From assembly GCA_946886475.1 (NCBI GenBank), contig CAMPIQ010000193.1:1-5053 (forward strand): DNA of 5,053 bases. The letters run 5' to 3'. The stretch comes from an uncultured Chitinophagales bacterium. GTDB lineage: Bacteria > Bacteroidota > Bacteroidia > Chitinophagales > Chitinophagaceae. The position numbers and the translations under genes are program-made. The notes beneath the pieces were generated by a model. It worked only from the letters and a program-made list of their open reading frames with translations. It was not told the origin of the DNA and did no database searches. Positions 1-5,053 of the stretch are shown piece after piece. Every line of letters begins with the position of its first letter. Position 1 is the stretch's first letter.

Positions 1-1840
1 GGATAGAAGAGGTAAATACACCACCGATCATTGGCAATACTATTGGTTTCATTACATCAGTGCCTACTCCGGTTGACCATAACACGGGTATAAGTCCAAA
101 TAAGGAAACACATACCGTCATTAATTTTGGCCGCAGTCTTTTGGCGGCTCCCCTGATAACATATTCCTTTAGATCTTCTTTAGTTATTGTTTCATTTGAA
201 TTTCCTTTTTGCTGCACCAGTTGCTTTATGGCATCATTCAGGTAGATCACCATTACAATACCGGTTTCAACCGCTATTCCAAATAATGCAATAAATCCTA
301 CTGCAACCGCCACTGAAAGATTAACGCCCCAGAAATAAATTAGATAAGCCCCTCCTATTAATGCAAATGGAATTGTGATCAGGCTAAAAAAGGCTTCCCT
401 GATGGAATGAAAAGCAAAATATAAAGAGAAGAAAATAATGACCAGCACAATAGGAGCCATGATCAGCAGGCTTTTTTGACCTCTTATCAGGTTTTCATAT
501 TGACCACTCCATTCCAAAAAATATCCCTGAGGCAGCATTCCTTTTTCGCGGTTGATCTTTTCCATTGCTTCTTTTACCGTGCTGCCAAGGTCACGGCCTC
601 TTACATTAAACATCACTGCACCACGCAAGATGGCATTTTCGGAAGTGATCATGGGTGGTCCGTCTTCAAAGGCAATATCAGCAACTGCACTGAGTGGCAC
701 TTCACCAAAAACGGGAGACTGAAGTGGGATACGCCTGATCTGTTCTAAACTATTTCTGTATTCCTGGGCCAGGCGCACACTGATGGCAAATCTTTGCCGG
801 CCTTCAACTGTCTGACTAACCGGTGATCCACCTAATGCGCTTTCCACTGTGGCATTCACATCATCCACATTTAAACCATATCGCGCCATGTCTGCACGTC
901 TTACATCAATGGAAAGATATTTACCACCGGTAATGGGTTCCACATAAAGATCAGTAACACCAGGTGTACCTTCAAGCGCTGATTTTACTTTTTCAGAAAC
1001 CTGTGCTATTTGATGTAGATCCTGCCCATATACTTTTATACCGACATCAGTTCTTATTCCAGTAGCAAGCATATTTATCCGGTTGATGATTGGCTGGGTC
1101 CAGCCATTGACAACCCCGGGGATCTGTAATTTTTTATCCAGCTCACTGATAATATCAGCTTTTGTAATTCCTTCCCTCCATTCCGACCTGGGTTTCAGCA
1201 TGATTATGGTTTCGATCATGCTTATTGGAGAATTATCTGTTGCTGTGCTGGCGCGACCGGCCTTACCCAGAACCTTATCTACTTCCGGAACCGACTTAAT
1301 TATCTTATCCTGGATCTGCAAAATGCGCTTTGCTTCCGTGTTTGAAATATCAGGCAGCGTTACCGGCATGAACAAAATACTTTGTTCATCCAGTGGCGGC
1401 ATAAATTCTGAACCCAGGCTTTTCAAAAGTGGTATTGAGATCAGCAAAGCAATGATATTGACTGCCAGGGTGGTCTTTCTCCATTTCAGTATGGTTCTGA
1501 TAACAGGTTCGTATATGCGCTCCAGGAAACGATTCACAGGGTTGGCATGATCAGGCCTGAATTTACCTTTCATGAAAAAGGAGATCAATACAGGCGCCAG
1601 CGTCAACACCAGAATGGCATCTACAATCATAATGAAGGTCTTGGTAAATGCAAGCGGATGGAATAATTTACCTTCCTGTCCCGTAAGCATGAACACCGGC
1701 AGAAAAGAAGTTATAATGATAACAGTGGCAAAGAATACGCCCCTTGAAACCTGTTTACTGGATCTCTCTATAACCGACAGGCGTTCTTCTTCCGTTATCC
1801 AGTTTTCCTTATTTTTTTTCTTTCGTTTACGCCAGATCAT
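1..1840 (-). CDS. cusA: CusA-type copper/silver RND exporter, C-terminal half (separate frame, cut by the left edge)
   Basis: This open frame starts at ATG 1840-1838 and reads without a stop to the window edge, giving 613 residues. It matches residues about 420 to 1015 of E. coli CusA as recalled. Visible parts in order: a very basic start (RKRKKKNK, residues 4-11), TM5 (about 33-53, ending in LTGQEGKLF), TM6 (64-89), TM7 (123-140), the C-terminal porter domain (about 145-450), TM8 (457-476), TM9 (483-504), TM10 with Glu525 (GIAVETGIVM), TM11 after RPK (Lys572), and the start of TM12 (PMIGG). Cleft methionines Met208 and Met257 correspond to CusA Met573 and Met623, while CusA Met672 is Leu323 here. 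About 35 residues, or more if an outer-membrane domain is fused, lie beyond the edge. The protein would sit in the inner membrane and export Cu(I)/Ag(I) by proton antiport with CusB and a TolC-like channel. Family assignment is firm. Whether this half is translated on its own is unknown. Confidence 0.93.
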   Translation of the reverse strand, partial: MIWRKRKKKNKENWITEEERLSVIERSSKQVSRGVFFATVIIITSFLPVFMLTGQEGKLFHPLAFTKTFIMIVDAILVLTLAPVLISFFMKGKFRPDHANPVNRFLERIYEPVIRTILKWRKTTLAVNIIALLISIPLLKSLGSEFMPPLDEQSILFMPVTLPDISNTEAKRILQIQDKIIKSVPEVDKVLGKAGRASTATDNSPISMIETIIMLKPRSEWREGITKADIISELDKKLQIPGVVNGWTQPIINRINMLATGIRTDVGIKVYGQDLHQIAQVSEKVKSALEGTPGVTDLYVEPITGGKYLSIDVRRADMARYGLNVDDVNATVESALGGSPVSQTVEGRQRFAISVRLAQEYRNSLEQIRRIPLQSPVFGEVPLSAVADIAFEDGPPMITSENAILRGAVMFNVRGRDLGSTVKEAMEKINREKGMLPQGYFLEWSGQYENLIRGQKSLLIMAPIVLVIIFFSLYFAFHSIREAFFSLITIPFALIGGAYLIYFWGVNLSVAVAVGFIALFGIAVETGIVMVIYLNDAIKQLVQQKGNSNETITKEDLKEYVIRGAAKRLRPKLMTVCVSLFGLIPVLWSTGVGTDVMKPIVLPMIGGVFTSSI

Positions 1841-1846
1841 ATATTA
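1837..1846 (-). other. cusA junction: overlapping stop and start (ATGA) next to an ATATAT run
   Basis: On the minus strand the upstream frame reads AAT AAT ATA TGA. The downstream frame has TAA at 1846-1844, then TAT ATG ATC TGG, so the two frames can only be joined within these few bases. Deleting one AT from ATATAT gives AAT AAT ATG ATC TGG and one continuous transporter frame. No clear Shine-Dalgarno sequence precedes the second ATG: an AGGAA lies about 20 bases before it and only AAAAGAA is closer. An ATGA overlap is a classic arrangement for coupled termination and reinitiation. The alternatives are a recent 2-base insertion or a sequencing error. Confidence 0.9.
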
Positions 1847-3129
1847 TTCTTTTGTTGTTCCTGCCAGAGCGTATATCGTTCCGACAGGTGTTTGTATGCG
1901 TTCTCACTCATGATGATCCCATTATCTACAATAACACCTATGGCCAGGGCAATACCTGTCAGGGACATGATATTTGAGGAAATGTCAAATGCATTCAATA
2001 AAATGAAACTGGTAGCAATGGTTATCGGTATCTGAATGATAATACTCAATGCGCTTCGCCAGTGAAAAAGAAAAATGATCACAATGATGGATACCACGAT
2101 CATTTCCTCGATAAGTGTTTTTTTAATGCTTTCTATGCTTTCCTCAATTAATTCACCCCTGTCGTAAACAATGTCAAACTTCACTCCCTGAGGCAGGCCC
2201 CTGGCCACCTCCAGCATTTTTGCTTTTACATTATTAATGACGGCATCTGCATTTTCTCCATACCTCATCACCACAATACCCCCAACAACCTCCCCTTCTC
2301 CATTCATGTCAAATATTCCAAGTCTTGTTTGACCGGTCATTTGTACTACCGCAACATCAGCAATGGTTACGGCAATGCCATTTTTTGTTTGTATGGGAAT
2401 ATTTTCAATTTCCCCGATGGATTGCAAATAACCTGAGGTTTTAATTACATAACCTATGTCGCTTAATTCAAATTTGCTTCCGCCACTTTCATTATTATTG
2501 GATCTGACCGCAGAAATAATATTATTAATTGCGAGGTTGTAATAAAGAAGCTTATTGGGATCAACTGTTATTTGATATTGCTTTTGAAATCCGCCAAATG
2601 ACGCGATTTCACTTACACCGGAAACATTTTGTAAGGCAAACTTTATATACCAGTCCTGTAAGGCCCTTTGTTCTCCCAGGTCCATTTCAGGTGCATCCAG
2701 TGTATACCAGAGAATATGCCCAACACCCGTGCCATCGGGTCCCAGCTGTGGACTTACACCTTCGGGAAGCGATTGAGAAACCGTACTTAGTCTTTCCAAC
2801 ACCCTTTCCCTTGCCCAATAAACATCTACATCATCTTCAAAAATGATATAGATGAAACTCATCCCAAACATGGAGTTGGCCCGCACATACTTGATCCGCG
2901 GCAGGCCCTGAAGGTTGGTTACCAGCGGATAGGTTATCTGATCTTCTATTAATTGAGGACCTCTCCCCATCCATTCCGTAAATACGATCACCTGGTTCTC
3001 GGAGAGGTCAGGAATGGCATCAATAGGATTTTCCTTTACAGATAGGATACCCCATACAAAAAGACCAGCCGCTAAAATCAGAACAACAAATCTGTTCCGT
3101 AAGGACCATTCGATAATACGATGAACCAT
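1837..3129 (-). CDS. cusA: CusA-type copper/silver RND exporter, N-terminal half (stops early)
   Basis: The 430-residue product covers the first two fifths of a CusA/CzcA transporter, whose usual length is about 1,040 residues. TM1 is at about 12-30. It is followed by the RND signature IPDLSENQV (39-47) and the N-terminal porter domain (about 35-335), with YWARERVLE, LGPDGTGVG, LQDWYIK and LNGEGEV-like DMNGEGEVVGG. TM2 (342-356), TM3 (361-380) and TM4 (385-407) follow. TM4 carries NIMSLTGIALAIG and Asp402, the counterpart of the proton-relay Asp405 of E. coli CusA. Met388 matches CusA Met391, but Met403 is Ile400 here. The frame ends at TGA 1839-1837 in the cytoplasmic TM4-TM5 loop, and the rest of the protein continues one frame away from the overlapping ATG at 1840. 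The N-terminal start MVHRIIEWSLRNR is typical of the family. Transcription probably comes through from the HYC gene 201 bases upstream. It is either half of a split transporter or a frameshifted cusA. Confidence 0.95.
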   Translation of the reverse strand: MVHRIIEWSLRNRFVVLILAAGLFVWGILSVKENPIDAIPDLSENQVIVFTEWMGRGPQLIEDQITYPLVTNLQGLPRIKYVRANSMFGMSFIYIIFEDDVDVYWARERVLERLSTVSQSLPEGVSPQLGPDGTGVGHILWYTLDAPEMDLGEQRALQDWYIKFALQNVSGVSEIASFGGFQKQYQITVDPNKLLYYNLAINNIISAVRSNNNESGGSKFELSDIGYVIKTSGYLQSIGEIENIPIQTKNGIAVTIADVAVVQMTGQTRLGIFDMNGEGEVVGGIVVMRYGENADAVINNVKAKMLEVARGLPQGVKFDIVYDRGELIEESIESIKKTLIEEMIVVSIIVIIFLFHWRSALSIIIQIPITIATSFILLNAFDISSNIMSLTGIALAIGVIVDNGIIMSENAYKHLSERYTLWQEQQKNNI

Positions 3130-3330: not shown

Positions 3331-3732
3331 TCAAATGCGGAATACGCGATTGCGTTTATAAATGGCGACGTCCCAACTTCGGGGCGGGGCATGGCTTTCA
3401 GGATGAAAGCGGAGGTTTTCAGTTAATGCAGCCTGGTTATTTTCAGCTGCAATATAATTGTGTTGGTCAGGTGAAATTTTAAACAACTGAAATAAAGCAA
3501 AGGATGCTTTTTGATCGTCCTGGATCTTTACCCAACTGTTAACATCGTGGCAACATCCATTATCAACATTTTCCTGCTGTTCCATGCCACATTTACCACA
3601 TGTCTTTTCCCTGCTGTCTGACCACAACGACCAGTCGGCCAATTTACCCATGCAATAATGTACATGTATAGATGTACCGCTGGAGGTAACAGCGTAAATG
3701 ATTAATAATATGGAAGCCAGTATTCGCTTCAT
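3331..3732 (-). CDS. Secreted Cys/His-rich protein, HYC_CC_PP family
   Basis: The 133-residue protein starts with a signal peptide: MKR, then a hydrophobic stretch at about 4-17 ending near SSGTS, so it should be exported to the periplasm or envelope. The mature part begins with HVHYCMGKL (HYC at 25-27), followed by a CxxC (Cys45, Cys48) with Met50, a GCCHD (Cys60, Cys61, His62) and HAPPRS near the end (Pro116-Pro117). This order of HYC, CC and PP motifs is what defines the HYC_CC_PP family of small Bacteroidota proteins. The function of the family is unknown to me. The Cys, His and Met residues and the position just upstream of cusA on the same strand suggest that it binds or senses copper or another soft metal in the periplasm, which is an inference. 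The start is secure: an in-frame TAA lies at 3753-3751 and no other start codon falls between. No Shine-Dalgarno sequence is visible (CCCCGG precedes the ATG). Confidence 0.88.
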   Translation of the reverse strand: MKRILASILLIIYAVTSSGTSIHVHYCMGKLADWSLWSDSREKTCGKCGMEQQENVDNGCCHDVNSWVKIQDDQKASFALFQLFKISPDQHNYIAAENNQAALTENLRFHPESHAPPRSWDVAIYKRNRVFRI

Positions 3733-3962: not shown

Positions 3963-4232
3963 GACAGGATACAGAACAGGCCTGTCTTAATAAAGACCAA
4001 TGCTTATAAGCGGTATATCATTCAAAAAAAATAGCATTGAAGGTGGCGGATAATGGTACCGGAATGCCGGAAGAGATACTGGAAAATATCTTCATTCCGT
4101 TCTTCAGCACTAAAAAAAATGGAAGCTGCTTGGATTAAGTTTGTGCAATCAAATAGTGATGTTGCATAAGGAAATATCCAGATACAATCATTTGAGGGAA
4201 AGGGGCCGGTGGTTTCCTTATTTTTTGGTTAA
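3963..4232 (+). pseudogene. Remnant of a sensor histidine kinase, ATP-binding (HATPase_c) C-terminus only
   Basis: The frame open at 4010-4138 encodes [15 protein letters not shown] and then [12 protein letters not shown], the G1 and F boxes of a histidine kinase ATPase domain. It then stops after Cys-Leu-Asp, where GxG-LSL is expected. The next frame (4132-4170) supplies [13 protein letters not shown], the usual sequence after the G2 box. A third frame (4173-4232) supplies NIQIQSFEGKG and VVSLFFG followed by TAA, the normal end of such a kinase. At the 5' side, 3963-4031 reads RPVLIKTNAY in a further shift, with the change at a run of eight A. Each shift is explained by one missing base, at about 4024-4031, 4127-4131 and 4171-4172. 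The phosphoacceptor His box and all sensor domains are absent. The kinase assignment from 4010 is firm; the extension back to 3963 is tentative. The part cannot give an active kinase. Confidence 0.85.
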
Positions 4233-4572: not shown

Positions 4573-4863
4573 ATGAAGGGTGACCATGAAATAAAAAAGC
4601 AGGAACTGGTGGATCTTCTGGAGGACCTGGATTCGCCTTTTCACCTGGTGGTATGGAATGATGAGGTGAATACATTTGAATGGGTGATTGAAACCCTGAT
4701 GGAAATATGTAATCATTCGCACGAACAGGCAGAACAGTGTGCCTATATTATACACTTCCGCGGTAAGTATGCCGTAAAGCAGGGAAGTTACGATGAACTC
4801 AAACCCATGTGCGATGCCATTACTGAAAGAGGTATTGGTGCAACGGTGGAGGAAATGGCGTGA
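4573..4863 (+). CDS. clpS: ATP-dependent Clp protease adaptor protein ClpS
   Basis: ClpS binds proteins bearing destabilising N-terminal residues and delivers them to the ClpA or ClpC unfoldase for degradation in the cytosol. The 96-residue product is of normal length. A short N-terminal extension (1-20) precedes the ClpS core, which has LVVWNDEVNTFEWVIETL (25-42) and the AYIIHFRGK segment (57-65). Asn29 and Asp30 match the N-end-binding Asn34 and Asp35 of E. coli ClpS, and His61 matches His66. The gatekeeper Met40 of E. coli is Phe35 here, which may change the shape of the pocket. The core ends with ELKPMCDAITERGIGATVEE, the final strand. The start is certain because an in-frame TGA lies at 4567-4569. 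No Shine-Dalgarno sequence is present, and a promoter-like box ends 4 bases before the ATG. The gene is monocistronic as far as the window shows, with repeats following its stop. Confidence 0.96.
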   Translation: MKGDHEIKKQELVDLLEDLDSPFHLVVWNDEVNTFEWVIETLMEICNHSHEQAEQCAYIIHFRGKYAVKQGSYDELKPMCDAITERGIGATVEEMA

Positions 4864-4916: not shown

Positions 4917-4920
4917 TGAA

Positions 4921-5035
4921 GTTCAAAGTTCAAAGTTCAAAGTCGGGTCGTTTATAGAATACAATATTTTTCTGCATTGGACATTGTAGTCAACGCTGTA
5001 TTTAGTCCGCTGACTTTGAACTTTGAACTATGAAA
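4921..5035. repeat. GTTCAAA heptamer repeats in inverted orientation
   Basis: Three tandem GTTCAAA units plus GTC (4921-4944) face GAC plus two TTTGAAC units and a degenerate TATGAAA (5012-5035). The inner 17 bases (4928-4944 and 5012-5028) are perfect reverse complements, and the full 24-base arms match at 22 positions. The 67 bases between them hold no gene. The pair could fold into a long hairpin at the 3' end of the clpS transcript or be a relic of a non-autonomous repeat element. Confidence 0.85.
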
Positions 5036-5053
5036 TTAGTACGCTGACTTTGA
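5002..5053. repeat. Direct repeat with 34-base period running off the right edge
   Basis: An 18-base unit, TTAGT[C/A]CGCTGACTTTGA, occurs at 5002-5019 and again at 5036-5053 with one mismatch. The second copy ends at the last base of the window, so the array may continue. The unit contains the GACTTTGA part of the heptamer repeat. Confidence 0.75.

Follow-up and report, generated by a model that had tools for sequence, protein, structure and literature searches.

RND pumps are treated as single-chain protomers. SecD and SecF, which belong to the RND superfamily, are two polypeptides in many bacteria and one in others, and they represent two 6-TM halves, separated where the internal repeat begins anew after TM6. 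By contrast, the CusA-type pump described here is not cut between TM6 and TM7 but after TM4, inside the first repeat. MdtBC is an RND pump with two different inner-membrane genes (PMC7015380); MdtB and MdtC are homologs that arose by gene duplication, whereas the two parts of split CusA are unlike each other and appear to derive from fission. A close known system is E. coli CusA of CusCBA (PDB 3k07 and 3ne5; TIGR00914; Pfam ACR_tran), to which both halves align over nearly the full length. They retain its three copper-binding Met as well as its proton-relay residues, and in relatives there are partner genes of the TolC/OEP and CusB-type HlyD families. E. coli CusA is one chain, whereas the split pump has two genes, probably two chains per protomer, and extra residues at the break. 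Among open-licence PMC papers we recognised no description of a split CusA.

One CusA in two open reading frames

The window, the whole stretch of 5,053 nucleotides that we analysed, carries the following features:

1..1840, minus strand: cusA-C, the C-half of the permease, from TM5 onwards with the second periplasmic part (ORF 1840..2; ATG 1840-1838)
125..268, minus strand: cusA-C Glu525 (268-266) and Lys572 (127-125), proton-relay equivalents
1070..1369, minus strand: cusA-C Met158 (1369-1367), Met208 (1219-1217) and Met257 (1072-1070), Cu(I)/Ag(I) site equivalents by alignment
1799..1840, minus strand: basic N-terminal extension of cusA-C, MIWRKRKKKNKENW, preceding the helix that leads into TM5
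1837..1840 (1840-1837), minus strand: ATGA junction, where the cusA-N stop TGA overlaps the cusA-C start ATG
1837..3129, minus strand: cusA-N, the N-half of a CusA-type RND permease, 430 aa, with TM1, the first periplasmic part and TM2-TM4 (stop TGA 1839-1837)
1840..1899, minus strand: C-terminal tail of cusA-N beyond the TM4 EN motif, which prolongs the TM4 helix in the model
1924..1926, minus strand: codon of cusA-N Asp402, equivalent of the TM4 proton-relay Asp by alignment to CusA
3331..3732, minus strand: small protein of the HYC_CC_PP family (profile match 1.1e-11, above cut-off), upstream of cusA-N and in the same direction
4573-4863, plus strand: ClpS adaptor protein (Pfam PF02617), a complete ORF found by Pfam match

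Together, cusA-N and cusA-C are one CusA in two ORFs, broken at the TM4-TM5 loop. The first-pass annotation had proposed two ORFs meeting at an ATGA in this loop, and the lengths of the halves (430 aa and 644 aa) and their alignments to TIGR00914 and CusA bear this out. The window holds 613 aa of cusA-C, which runs off its end; the last 31 aa lie outside, and the complete protein of 644 aa was found as a database copy (P0121). In a profile search against TIGR00914 (CusA/CzcA; 1051 positions), cusA-N covers positions 1-425 and cusA-C 424-1021, so no homologous stretch is missing at the break. Aligned to E. coli CusA chains, the halves match residues 8-430 and 439-1030, respectively. The four longest helices in the cusA-N model span residues 13-33, 324-354, 357-380 and 387-428; the last of these consists of TM4 and the helical tail, which places the break between TM4 and TM5, in a loop that we take to be cytoplasmic from RND topology.

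Neither half reaches the curated cut-off of TIGR00914, set at 701 bits for one protein (444.7 bits for cusA-N and 624.3 for cusA-C, the latter cut by the window end), and two ORFs stand in place of the single polypeptide of 12 TM helices that defines CusA/CzcA. Because each half misses the cut-off singly while the pair covers the profile without a gap, we call the pair a split variant that would work like CusA, and not a standard member. The three metal-site Met that mark the monovalent Cu/Ag branch of CusA are present, as are the three relay residues of RND proton antiporters (Asp in TM4, then Glu and Lys further on), all of them within the window. Among the JGI names given to database proteins are CzcA family heavy metal efflux pump for the N-half and Cu(I)/Ag(I) efflux system membrane protein CusA/SilA for the C-half. 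The nearest unsplit relatives in a search of 395 Bacteroidota genomes (L131-L137; 49-58% identical to the halves) belong to the same family and share the metal-site residues; unlike the split pair, they are one ORF (open frames of 1049-1120 aa), with a TM4-TM5 stretch of 25-28 residues and low net charge.

Separate AF2 models of the two halves were mediocre, with pLDDT of 67 and 72 and pTM of 0.45 and 0.60 for N and C, respectively. In the PDB, both models matched CusA chains best, with query-based TM-scores of 0.57 for N and 0.64 for C and rmsd values of 11 and 9 A, and as wholes the models superposed poorly on CusA, at an rmsd of about 9-11 A. Four helices of transmembrane length are seen in the N model and further ones in the C model.

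The HYC_CC_PP gene is a probable operon neighbour of cusA-N and cusA-C. By eye, similar-looking small ORFs lie ahead of the split pair in four relatives (L002, L015, L115 and L143). Elsewhere in the window, GTTCAAA units stand in tandem in the intergenic region after clpS (4919-5053), along with a copy in inverted orientation (AGTTCAAAGTTCAAAGT / ACTTTGAACTTTGAACT, exact over 17 nt), and a short plus-strand stretch at 4034-4138 resembles, by eye, the ATP-binding end of a histidine kinase and is probably a gene remnant. No RNA element in the window reached the Rfam gathering level, and megablast found no plasmid DNA similar to the whole window.

The same break in relatives

A short AT run lies at the junction, and the first-pass annotation had held it equally simple that one added AT, as a recent mutation or a sequencing error, had broken an ordinary one-piece cusA. 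To see how the junction looks in relatives, as had been suggested there, we fetched the best 80 of at least 580 related stretches in bacterial and archaeal genomes. In all 80, the N-half stands alone, ending at 425-438 aa, and the C-half is on the same locus (cut by the contig end in L045). None of these loci has a continuous frame across the junction, and the sole exception that our family searches returned is nested within the split clade (below). Relatives at 89-90% identity and named isolates are broken at the same place; isolates among the fetched split loci include Chitinophaga, Pedobacter, Flavobacterium, Dyadobacter, Olivibacter and Solitalea. Nor does the AT run account for the split, since a relative whose N-half is 89% identical (L001) lacks the run and is nevertheless split with the same ATGA.

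Protein searches gave the same picture. Among about 5.8 billion proteins searched with the N-half, with candidates restricted to 236-752 aa so that only separate halves were eligible, all 120 matches listed, the window's own copy included, were 430-432 aa long. For the C-half, candidates of up to 1072 aa were allowed and one-piece proteins were thus eligible; the best 120 matches listed, again with the window's own copy, were 638-659 aa. Both searches scored the 8000 candidates that shared most words with the query.

A survey of 395 Bacteroidota genomes, drawn evenly, found at least 29 separate N-halves (425-481 aa, 55-83% identical) in 24 genomes. At least 29 C-halves, likewise separate and 643-728 aa long, occurred in exactly these 24, and the two members of every pair shared a contig. 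These counts are lower bounds because only the best 4 (N) and best 3 (C) candidates per genome were scored, and one genome with an N-half match at a contig edge (G234) was left out of the 29. Longer, unsplit matches in both searches were at most 58% identical. Two family surveys agreed: around Chitinophaga eiseniae (G001), 33 matches at 1e-150 or better were found in 31 of 79 genomes, 32 of them separate N-halves, and around a Pedobacter genome (G003), all 40 N-half matches, in 34 of 81 genomes, were separate ORFs. The 80 fetched loci, the 395-genome survey and the two family surveys rule out a sequencing error or a very recent frameshift, as do the narrow length range of the N-half matches and the swapped genes and inserted genes between halves described below; despite the AT run, we consider this explanation exceedingly improbable.

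The split also occurs on plasmids. Of 85 matching plasmid records, 14 were at least 58% identical, and all 14 are from Bacteroidota genera (by the taxonomy given in the record for five of them). RefSeq has the halves as two CDSs; on complete plasmids each is annotated as an "efflux RND transporter permease subunit", beside TolC and adaptor genes. Both halves are intact in four of the six plasmid regions that we read (L151, L152, L153 and L155). On a Hymenobacter sp. HDW8 plasmid (L154, 7290-9315), the N-half is intact and the C-half is in broken pieces; a Pelobacter plasmid sequence at 52% identity (L156) is unsplit. In Spirosoma linguale pSLIN01 (L155, 5882-9353), both halves are open, yet the record has no protein there and skips a locus tag; the pair may have been classed there as a pseudogene. 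Among the fetched loci, L017 comes from a record named Williamsia sp. (Actinomycetota), yet it carries a Chitinophagaceae-type pair and groups with Chitinophagaceae in the tree; the record is probably a mislabelled metagenome bin. The scope of the genome survey was Bacteroidota.

Junction architecture and the history of the split

To describe the junction across the family, we compared 106 distinct split loci, the window included, after removing 13 repeat loci from 119 split rows. The C-half start was set at whichever ATG comes closest to a point 26 residues ahead of the TM5 helix, a rule that favours the commonest length. Relative to the N stop, this start falls at -1 (ATGA) in 40 loci; a further 17 have other overlaps, reaching -20, and the offset is +2 to +14 in 39 and +62 to +689 nt in 8. 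In the remaining 2 loci the C-half is upstream of the N-half. Coupling through ATGA, which the first-pass annotation had noted, is thus present in the window but cannot be the essence of the arrangement, given that only 40 of 106 split loci have it. In two loci (L002 and L113), a methyltransferase gene stands between the halves. The two reversed loci (L111 and L112) read C-half, OEP (TolC type), CusB-type HlyD, HlyD with a heavy-metal-binding domain, N-half; because these are sister rows in the trees, the reversed order is probably the result of one rearrangement. The gap between the halves in Nubsella zeaxanthinifaciens (L071, 6279-6526) has, by eye, short repeats around GACGCACAATTGTGCGTC.

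Frequent overlaps, and a C-half start at offset 2 modulo 3 in 71 of the 106 loci, might suggest programmed ribosomal frameshifting, in which one gene would give a full-length pump plus a short N product. Several observations speak against this. The frame relation between the halves varies (71, 32 and 3 of 106), the junctions inspected by eye show no evident shared slippery site, and an in-frame ATG is available for the C-half in every one of the 106 loci. Moreover, the variable offsets, with gaps of +62 to +689 in 8 loci, the inserted genes and the reversed order exclude a single frameshifted gene, and we judge programmed frameshifting to be very improbable.

Among 27 unsplit relatives, 25-38 residues with a net charge of -3 to +3 separate the EN motif of TM4 from the TM5 helix; in the window, for which alone this sum was taken, the N-tail (22 residues, counted from E) and the C-head (26) add up to 48. 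Across the 106 loci, the C-head, counted without its final 12 residues, has a median length of 14 residues; its mean net charge is +3.9. The first-pass annotation had pointed to a strongly basic segment, RKRKKKNK, at the head of the C-half. It is there, and a basic head is usual among the loci; but the extension is absent (charge 0) in 4 of the 106, so the segment is not essential. A cruder choice of start, the last ATG, took an internal Met in several loci and gave 12 of 106 without the basic extension.

To trace the history of the split, we built trees of each half from 42 of the 106 split rows, 10 of the 27 unsplit rows and 5 outgroup rows, with near-identical rows removed. In both trees, all split rows fall on one side of a branch (support 100/100 for N and 95/85 for C), and each tree asks for one change. 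The N and C trees have 30 of 54 splits in common and show 9 conflicts between well-supported branches, which concern the unsplit rows and the sequence in which split subgroups branch; given these conflicts, the halves need not have been strictly co-inherited or have identical histories.

The one exception in the family surveys is a continuous ORF of 1051 aa (L157, genome G456; 3739-6894, minus strand) that is 67% identical to both window halves and has 31 residues from the EN motif to the TM5 helix. By eye, three ORFs follow this gene where relatives have a TolC-type and two adaptor genes. In second trees of 43 rows, which included L157 and three more split rows after 18 close rows were removed, L157 is nested in the split clade: in the C tree it falls in a 5-row set supported at 100/99, and in the N tree it stands with the same four rows at 94/94, inside a larger set of 23 rows (100/99). 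Split rows and L157 together form a clade supported at 99/100 (N) and 88/82 (C, down from 95/85). These trees fit best with one old gene fission within a Bacteroidota CusA lineage, and, given an unsplit root, L157 would most simply be a re-fusion of split halves. Keeping L157 unsplit throughout would need several separate fissions, an argument drawn from the shape of the tree. Independent repeated fissions are unneeded, as the first trees ask for one change and those with L157 for two.

A putative two-chain pump

Functional residues are given here in E. coli CusA numbering, with D405, E939 and K984 as the proton relay and M573, M623 and M672 as the Cu(I)/Ag(I) site. The equivalent of the TM4 relay Asp is D in all 106 split and all 27 unsplit rows, and each of the three metal-site Met equivalents is M in all of these rows. 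Among the 104 split rows that cover the positions, the E939 equivalent is E in every one and the K984 equivalent is K in 102 and L in 2; most of the unsplit rows are truncated C-terminally, which leaves E939 and K984 readable in 7 of the 27. At the position of CusA M403, all 106 split loci have I or V, and at that of M486, 63 have M; the more extended Met relay of E. coli CusA is therefore retained only in part.

Comparison of the window with four relatives gave pN/pS of 0.09-0.15, with synonymous sites near saturation, and three closer, unsaturated pairs gave 0.00-0.06 for N and 0.01-0.03 for C. These ratios indicate that both halves are under strong purifying selection. The metal-site and proton-relay residues, together with the low pN/pS, argue that the pair is functional.

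The two halves might instead have drifted apart in function, with the N-half, for example, becoming a regulator or assembly factor and the C-half working with an unsplit CusA paralog. Six genomes picked for having a pair also carry several unsplit CusA/CzcA-like paralogs, and the N and C trees differ in places, as this possibility would allow. But N and C copy numbers are equal in all six of these genomes, the halves share a contig in the genomes listed, all 106 N-halves retain the relay Asp, selection on both halves is strongly purifying, and an apparently re-fused copy exists (L157). We therefore regard functional drift as very unlikely.

We consider it very probable that cusA-N and cusA-C encode a two-gene, two-chain heavy-metal RND pump of the CusA type, derived from one old fission, whose chains form one protomer. 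The two-chain reading, which the first-pass annotation had raised, is supported as far as sequence goes, and in relatives, too, the halves are separate ORFs. One old fission would have cut cusA in the TM4-TM5 loop within a Bacteroidota CusA lineage, after which cusA-N and cusA-C would have been inherited as two genes, typically in a Cus operon of N, C, a TolC-type cusC and two CusB-type adaptors. Neighbours of the pair in relatives include OEP and HlyD_D23 genes (by Pfam in L111 and L112 and by annotation on plasmids); the window itself ends within cusA-C. In one locus (L159), the pair is followed by an ORF that by eye resembles a P-type ATPase, so the TolC/CusB-type setting is not found in every locus examined.

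Both chains would be made, often by coupled translation at ATGA or across a short gap, and would insert separately with their new ends in the cytosol. They would then associate through TM4/TM5 and periplasmic interfaces to give one CusA-like protomer, and we infer that both chains most likely sit in the same protomer. Three N/C pairs would form a trimer in which proton antiport drives Cu(I)/Ag(I) out through TolC- and CusB-type partners; export of Cu(I)/Ag(I) is suggested by the metal-site residues and the neighbouring genes. Because the relay is divided, with Asp on N and Glu and Lys on C, and the three Met are on C alone, neither chain should pump by itself.

The cut may even have been kept for its usefulness, although we put this forward as a speculative and rather doubtful idea. 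The long helical tail of TM4 and the basic C-head could form a cytoplasmic docking site or assembly checkpoint that is absent from one-piece CusA, so that formation of the pump from three N and three C chains would depend on how two subunits are supplied or paired. In some genomes, which carry two or three copies, halves might also be exchanged among these.

Annotation can take real pumps for broken ones, as the open pSLIN01 halves without a listed protein may illustrate. A widespread natural two-chain CusA, with swapped gene orders and an apparent re-fusion, would offer a ready system for questions of RND protomer assembly, letting one ask which TM contacts keep the protomer intact and whether a proton relay can operate over a gap in the chain.
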